Positions 42,877 through 43,639 of a stretch of 64,000 nucleotides of DNA are shown here, piece after piece. The translations under genes and the position numbers were made by a program. How positions within the stretch are numbered: position 1 is the stretch's first letter; each line of letters opens with the position of its first letter. The notes under the pieces were generated by a model. That model was given only the letters and a program-made list of their open reading frames with translations. It was not told the origin of the DNA and ran no database searches. Source of the DNA: Gammaproteobacteria bacterium (lineage in GTDB: Bacteria; Pseudomonadota; Gammaproteobacteria; Steroidobacterales; XN24); NCBI GenBank assembly GCA_024640085.1, contig JAHEFR010000001.1:248001-312000 (forward strand), in the 5' to 3' direction.

Positions 42877-43263
42877 TTAGTCGCAGGCGCGAACGATAAA
42901 AGCGACGGCCGAATCCAGCGTGTCGAACCCGTGCTCCTTGTCCACTTCCTCGTAGGCCGGTCGCCGGCGGATCTGCCGGTCGCGCAACATGAACCGCTGT
43001 TGCATCAGGCCCCTGTCGTCGAAGCTGAGCTTCAGGTGAAGCTTTAACTCCCTGTCGTCGCCGATACGGACGAATATCGCCTGCTCGCCGCGCTCTACCG
43101 ATACAGCCGTATAGCCCGAGAATCGGCTGTTCAGCTGGACGGCGGCGTCGTCCATGGCCTGGAGAACGCGTTGAGCCTTGCGCTCGCGCCACTCGAGCTC
43201 CAGCGTCTTGAGGCGATGATTAGTCGCCGCCGTATCGACCTTGCGGTCACTAAGAATACCCAT
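42877..43263 (-). CDS. 128-residue protein of unknown function, cyclic-di-GMP riboswitch-controlled
   Basis: The ATG at 43263 follows AGGA at four bases. The product starts MGILSDRKVDTAATNHRLKT with an amphipathic helix, followed by a probable alpha/beta domain (RFSGYTAVSVERGEQAIFV, ELKLHLKLSFDDRGLMQQRF) and a C-terminal FDTLDSAVAFIVRACD. No signal peptide or membrane segment is seen and I do not recognise a family. A cyclic-di-GMP-I riboswitch lies in its 5' leader, so its level should follow cyclic-di-GMP and hence the motile/sessile choice. Charged strands and small size would suit a regulatory or adaptor protein, but that is inference. Confidence 0.8.
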   Translation of the reverse strand: MGILSDRKVDTAATNHRLKTLELEWRERKAQRVLQAMDDAAVQLNSRFSGYTAVSVERGEQAIFVRIGDDRELKLHLKLSFDDRGLMQQRFMLRDRQIRRRPAYEEVDKEHGFDTLDSAVAFIVRACD

Positions 43264-43639
43264 CTTCCTACTCCCTCACTCCCGTGATCGGATGCCGCAC
43301 GCCGGCGTCCGAGCAGCATCGGGCAATCGACGAAAAGCGGGGTCGGTCGGAGGAGGGGATGCGAGGGCTGGCGCCGACCGGGTGACCGGTGGGCTACAGG
43401 CGACCCCGCTGTCCTAGGCTCCTGCCCTTAGACCGGTGGCTTTGCGTCACCGCCTTTCGGCGGTTATGCCTTTTTCTGCTCGATCCACGCTGGCACAAGG
43501 CCATAGGAGTGTCAAGGCACTGGTCCGCAGACTCCGGAAATCGGGGGGAGAGGCGGATTCTGGCCCCGGTCCATTGACCGGTTACAGGTGTGGGTCTAGT
43601 CTGCCGCTACCTTCACGGCACAGGCGCAGGGACCGGCTG
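43264..43639. other. Intergenic region holding the riboswitch
   Basis: These 376 bases separate the 128-residue gene (minus) from the DUF1232 gene (plus). The riboswitch occupies about 43395-43485. Between it and the gene start (43264-43394) I see no clear terminator, so control may be at translation or through a structure not obvious by eye. From 43486 to 43639 there is only the start region of the DUF1232 gene, with AGGGA seven bases before its ATG. Confidence 0.6.
43395..43485 (-). ncRNA. Cyclic-di-GMP-I (GEMM) riboswitch
   Basis: Read on the minus strand, the region has the ordered signatures of the class I cyclic-di-GMP aptamer: GGCA-x-AACC, a perfect 6-bp stem capped by a GAAA tetraloop (stem 43449-43454 with 43459-43464), then the near-invariant GACGCAAAGCC ending at 43438. 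Next come CACCGGTCTAAG, a short hairpin (GGC-AGGA-GCC, 43417-43426), CCTAGGA as tetraloop receptor and AGCGGGGTC (43402-43410). The order and the key bases match the Vibrio Vc2 aptamer. It lies about 130 bases upstream of the 128-residue gene on the same strand. Whether ligand binding turns the gene on or off cannot be told. Confidence 0.9.

Follow-up and report, generated by a model that had tools for sequence, protein, structure and literature searches.

A c-di-GMP-I riboswitch aptamer upstream of a gene for a small, lineage-restricted protein in a gammaproteobacterial family

The c-di-GMP-I (GEMM-I) aptamers, gathered in Rfam family RF01051, include Vc2 of V. cholerae and Cd1 of C. difficile. 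The closest described system to the one reported here is the riboswitch of pilM in Geobacter metallireducens, a GEMM-Ib RNA that responds to cGAMP and acts as a transcriptional ON switch (PMC9262584). In this RNA, the terminator sequesters the ligand-pairing C of the aptamer, which makes it an ON switch (PMC9262584). Other aptamers of the class, such as Cd1, act as OFF switches (PMC9262584). The GEMM aptamers that prefer cGAMP are distinguished by the G20A difference (PMC7288161, PMC6274999). A literature search returned nothing on c-di-GMP-I riboswitches in metagenome-assembled gammaproteobacteria. Among the genomes that we sampled in the order, 105 of 147 carried at least one c-di-GMP-I aptamer.

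We searched the window, that is, the whole stretch of 64,000 nucleotides analysed here, against Rfam 15 with cmscan. A single match lay above the gathering cut-off, the c-di-GMP-I aptamer RF01051 at 43396-43480 on the minus strand. The match covers positions 1-87 of the 87 positions of the model and is therefore full length, with a score of 77.3 bits against a cut-off of 35 and an E-value of 1.9e-13 (whole window against 4227 families). An earlier note, made from the letters of the sequence, had proposed a c-di-GMP-I aptamer at 43395-43485. The covariance score, at twice the gathering cut-off, bears out this assignment, and the interval was right to within five bases. Moreover, the motifs on which the proposal was built (a GAAA-capped stem, GACGCAAAGCC, CCTAGGA and AGCGGGGTC) are all present in place; the RF01051 alignment contains a GAAA-capped P2 stem, GACGCAAAG, a P3 stem with the receptor-like CCTAGGA, and AGCGGGGTCGCC. 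As a representative of a known class the aptamer is ordinary, and the only unusual part of the locus is the orphan protein encoded behind it.

We then asked which ligand this aptamer would bind. Aligned to the Rfam consensus, the aptamer has a G at diagnostic position 20, 5′ of a conserved C. Indeed, AAGGCA on the 5′ side of the aptamer and TCGCC on its 3′ side provide both G20 and the ligand-pairing C, the latter presumably position 92 in the usual numbering. The diagnostic base is a G in 56 of the 59 aptamers of the taxonomic family and a C in the remaining three, which are weak matches. Because of the G at this position, cyclic-di-GMP rather than cGAMP is the expected ligand. The genome encodes ten GGDEF domains, and the cell can thus probably produce the signal.

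The open reading frame named in the earlier note (42877-43263, minus strand, 128 residues) is present, and its ATG lies 132 nt downstream of the aptamer, with a candidate Shine-Dalgarno sequence, GAGGGAG (43271-43277), located 7 nt before it. Judged by its substitution pattern, this open reading frame is a protein-coding gene under purifying selection: against the homologue of the same genus, dN is 0.24 and dS about 1.8, the latter being near saturation, and the differences cluster at third codon positions. Four homologues were found, this one included, with identities of 100, 66 (G001, same genus), 56 (G004) and 37% (G003), and all of them belong to the same taxonomic family. The three others lie in the records CP070833.1, CAMYOC010000045.1 and JARFQW010000192.1, all of them metagenome assemblies of gammaproteobacteria. 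Beyond the taxonomic family, profile searches gave no homologue in samples of the order (396 genomes), the class (369) and the phylum (398), which overlap partly and are not exhaustive. Four class genomes reached E-values of 0.002-0.005 over part of the profile only, which is chance level for so many genomes, and they were set aside. A single-sequence scan of the named genomes gave no relatives, and a search with the four-row alignment recovered the three homologues already known.

The earlier note had suggested searching for homologues of the protein and asking whether the aptamer is kept upstream of them, and none of those found lacked it. The aptamer lies upstream of the gene, on its strand, in all four genomes (73-79 bits), that is, in all three others that carry the gene. 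The four neighbourhoods also share their gene order, with a convergent gene for a TFIIB-type zinc-ribbon protein downstream of the 128-residue gene and a divergent DUF1232 gene together with a TPR/GT41 glycosyltransferase gene upstream. The leader between the aptamer and the ATG, in contrast, has diverged in length and sequence among the four homologues. Since the aptamer was kept while the leader diverged, the association does not merely reflect recent ancestry of the whole region.

The protein itself has no significant match in Pfam, NCBIfam or the PHROG collection. Weak hits to Pfam ORF_12_N (E 0.2), to two PHROGs (E 0.08 and 0.19) and to other Pfam entries were obtained with single family members only, and the weak matches to designed repeat proteins and to RPB5 in a sequence search of the PDB were taken as chance; none was retained. 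Read by eye, the protein has neither a secretion signal nor a membrane segment. An AlphaFold2 model built from four sequences is of moderate quality (pLDDT 79, pTM 0.65) and predicts a helix (residues 11-48), five strands and a second helix (116-127). Foldseek returned no match to this model with an E-value below 0.001; phage coat proteins, the actin capping protein and the CaMKII hub, with E-values of 0.07 or worse, were not accepted as relatives. The best VIA-align matches were frataxins, namely 6fco (Z 9.2 over 89 residues, rmsd 3.4) and CyaY 4lp1 (Z 8.1 over 83 residues, rmsd 2.5), obtained with this moderate-confidence model and next to unrelated folds at Z 7.6-8.0. The predicted fold is thus weakly frataxin-like.

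All four orthologous aptamers are preceded, at a distance of about 30 bases, by the invariant sequence CCTTGACA. Read by eye, a candidate promoter at 43487-43515 on the minus strand consists of TTGACA (43515-43510), a 17-nt spacer and a weak −10-like CAGCGT (43492-43487), and it would start transcription at about the first base of the aptamer. Its weak −10 kept it out of the list given by a consensus promoter scan. On the other side, the 3′ strand of the aptamer, AGCGGGGTCG (43401-43410), has an exact 10-nt complement at 43336-43345, within CGACCCCGCT followed by UUUU (43333-43345), a candidate terminator or anti-aptamer strand. This duplex is worth −20.6 kcal/mol; out of 1000 dinucleotide-shuffled versions of the leader, 2 do as well. 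The G004 leader can form a similar 9-bp helix without a T run (54 of 1000 shuffles were as good), and the leaders of G001 and G003 contain no anti-aptamer helix better than shuffles. When the other leaders of the family were searched systematically for an anti-aptamer strand, no general pattern emerged, and therefore no shared expression platform is claimed. In equilibrium folding, the structure with the terminator helix forced reaches −59.8 kcal/mol, against −62.6 to −64.4 kcal/mol for other downstream folds; the helix is not part of the minimum-energy fold, though it is nearly as good, and it has only a short T run. The ribosome-binding region has a predicted pairing of 0.7 whether or not the aptamer is fixed, and forcing the aptamer therefore lends no support to a translational switch.

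We next considered the other aptamers of the genome. There are nine c-di-GMP-I aptamers in this genome and 59 in the seven genomes of the family. The other copies precede pilM (PilM_2, E 2.9e-127), an M23 peptidase gene, a gene for an HZS-alpha-like lipoprotein, a gene for a large DUF11 protein and a unit of two genes that includes one for a TPR protein; in relatives, some aptamers precede a spore-coat-U type gene and the gene of an Ig-domain protein. The earlier note had placed the 128-residue protein in the cyclic-di-GMP regulon, and this claim has held: most other aptamers precede type IV pilus and surface-protein genes, and membership of the gene in the regulon is therefore well supported at the level of sequence. 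As the same switch stands before every copy of the gene that was found, the gene very probably belongs to the attachment and pili programme of the cell.

Several features of these other aptamers deserve mention. Tandem aptamers about 145 bases apart (L069, 1052-1135 and 1280-1365, G000:C5) precede a gene for a Calx-beta lipoprotein, and similar tandem pairs were found in all six related genomes searched. The aptamer-controlled lipoprotein encoded at L071, 1192-4140 has 983 residues and matches the middle domain of hydrazine synthase alpha (PF18582, E 1.6e-19), and similar genes sit behind an aptamer in several relatives. Two weak c-di-GMP-I matches (L073, 523-597, G000:C25, 44.4 bits; G001:C1:741804-741880, 37.5 bits) carry AGCCA in place of AGGCA and end in GGCTGTCAGC; the former is close to the end of a contig and has no clear gene downstream. 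From their sequences, they are possibly degenerate or variant aptamers. The aptamer at L070, 2501-2585 (G000:C48:60533-60617) precedes pilM in four of the seven family genomes, and in the other three pilM is present without an aptamer before it. The pilM aptamer and the 128-residue gene have the same spread, four genomes having both and three neither. This co-occurrence is only suggestive, because the three genomes that lack them represent one genus and hence a single phylogenetic contrast.

Altogether, we consider it highly probable, from the comparisons above, that a c-di-GMP-I riboswitch forms part of the 5′ leader of a transcript with a single gene, whose product is a small cytoplasmic protein. 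How the switch would act is a more delicate matter, and by analogy with Geobacter we lean towards an ON switch working by antitermination, a tentative choice since the helix is not consistently found in the homologue leaders. Without ligand, the aptamer 3′ strand (43401-43410) would pair with 43336-43345 to give a terminator ending in UUUU; with ligand, the strand would be held in the aptamer and transcription would continue into the gene, so that the protein would be made when cyclic-di-GMP is high. It is a lesser but real possibility that the riboswitch controls the gene as an OFF switch, or through translation or Rho rather than an intrinsic terminator. The lack of conservation of the 10-bp helix is consistent with this alternative, as is the existence of Cd1-type OFF versions of the class (PMC9262584). 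A possible route would be offered by the CCCCTCCTCC tract, rich in pyrimidines, together with the ribosome-binding region, rich in purines; a CU-rich leader stretch and a GGGAG-N-GGGAG ribosome-binding region occur both here and in G001. However, the unchanged pairing of the ribosome-binding region when the aptamer is fixed argues against translational control, and an exact complement followed by UUUU is rarely matched by shuffled leaders, in favour of antitermination. That the aptamer is a remnant or an independent RNA, exerting no control over the gene, is extremely unlikely: 132 nt do separate it from the ATG, and the control is read from sequence, but its orientation and position are the same before all four homologues despite the divergence of the leader, and the gene is the first conserved open reading frame downstream and is under purifying selection.

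The nature of the ligand and that of the protein can be weighed in the same way. GEMM-Ib aptamers are close relatives within the same Rfam family, and one of them controls pilM in Geobacter (PMC9262584, PMC8835794), which would be compatible with a response to 3′,3′-cGAMP. We nevertheless regard such a response as very unlikely here, for GEMM-Ib membership needs an A in place of G20 (PMC7288161, PMC6274999), and this aptamer, like 56 of the 59 family copies, has the G. As to the protein, one could imagine a divergent frataxin or CyaY-like protein through which the switch would couple iron-sulphur metabolism to attachment. The top structural matches are frataxins, and the Pfam frataxin/CyaY profile found no match in any of the seven family genomes searched (G000-G006), so that a recognisable CyaY is absent from every one of them. 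On the other hand, unrelated folds score nearly as high, Foldseek gave nothing below 0.001, the model is of moderate quality, and the Pfam frataxin family PF01491 was not matched by any of the four homologues. Furthermore, frataxins are expected to display an acidic ridge, whereas charge is balanced in this protein (23 K/R, 22 D/E). Sequence and charge thus give no support for a frataxin role, and we hold this reading to be very improbable.

The role of the protein can be approached through its regulation. The most economical reading is that the protein is soluble and has an accessory role in the attached state, in which type IV pili are made, a suggestion that is based on regulation alone and that we put forward as one possibility. 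The further step of the earlier note, towards a new biofilm or motility effector, is a conjecture. In the same tentative spirit, the protein might represent a new, family-specific group of cytoplasmic effectors or adaptors of type IV pilus assembly or attachment, with a riboswitch of its own that would turn it on in response to cyclic-di-GMP. Whatever the precise role, the riboswitch gives a firm regulatory lead on a protein that sequence comparison alone had left unexplained. The other aptamer targets of the genome are largely pilus and envelope proteins, and the aptamer at 43396-43480 is the only one in the genome to target a conserved, family-less protein in which no secretion signal or membrane segment is seen by eye. 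As the odd target in this set, the protein could reasonably be included in functional tests of surface attachment.

Compared with the RF01051 class as represented by Vc2 and Cd1, the whole covariance model is matched here, and a G also occupies the position that tells aptamers for cyclic-di-GMP and for cGAMP apart, binding being predicted from sequence. Elsewhere in the genome, the copies stand mostly before genes for pilus and surface proteins, whereas the gene behind this aptamer belongs to an uncharacterised family. The model of its product shares with the frataxin/CyaY fold the order helix, five strands, helix, but differs from it by a Z-score near those of unrelated folds, by the lack of an acidic excess and by the lack of a Pfam sequence match. 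The likeness to the Geobacter pilM riboswitch lies in the predicted expression platform: the aptamer 3′ strand can pair with a downstream strand that enters a U tract, the aptamer and the terminator helix would exclude each other, and this genome has an aptamer before pilM too. This leader differs from that of Geobacter in having G instead of A as the ligand base, in a helix that the homologues do not conserve, and in standing before a gene other than pilM.
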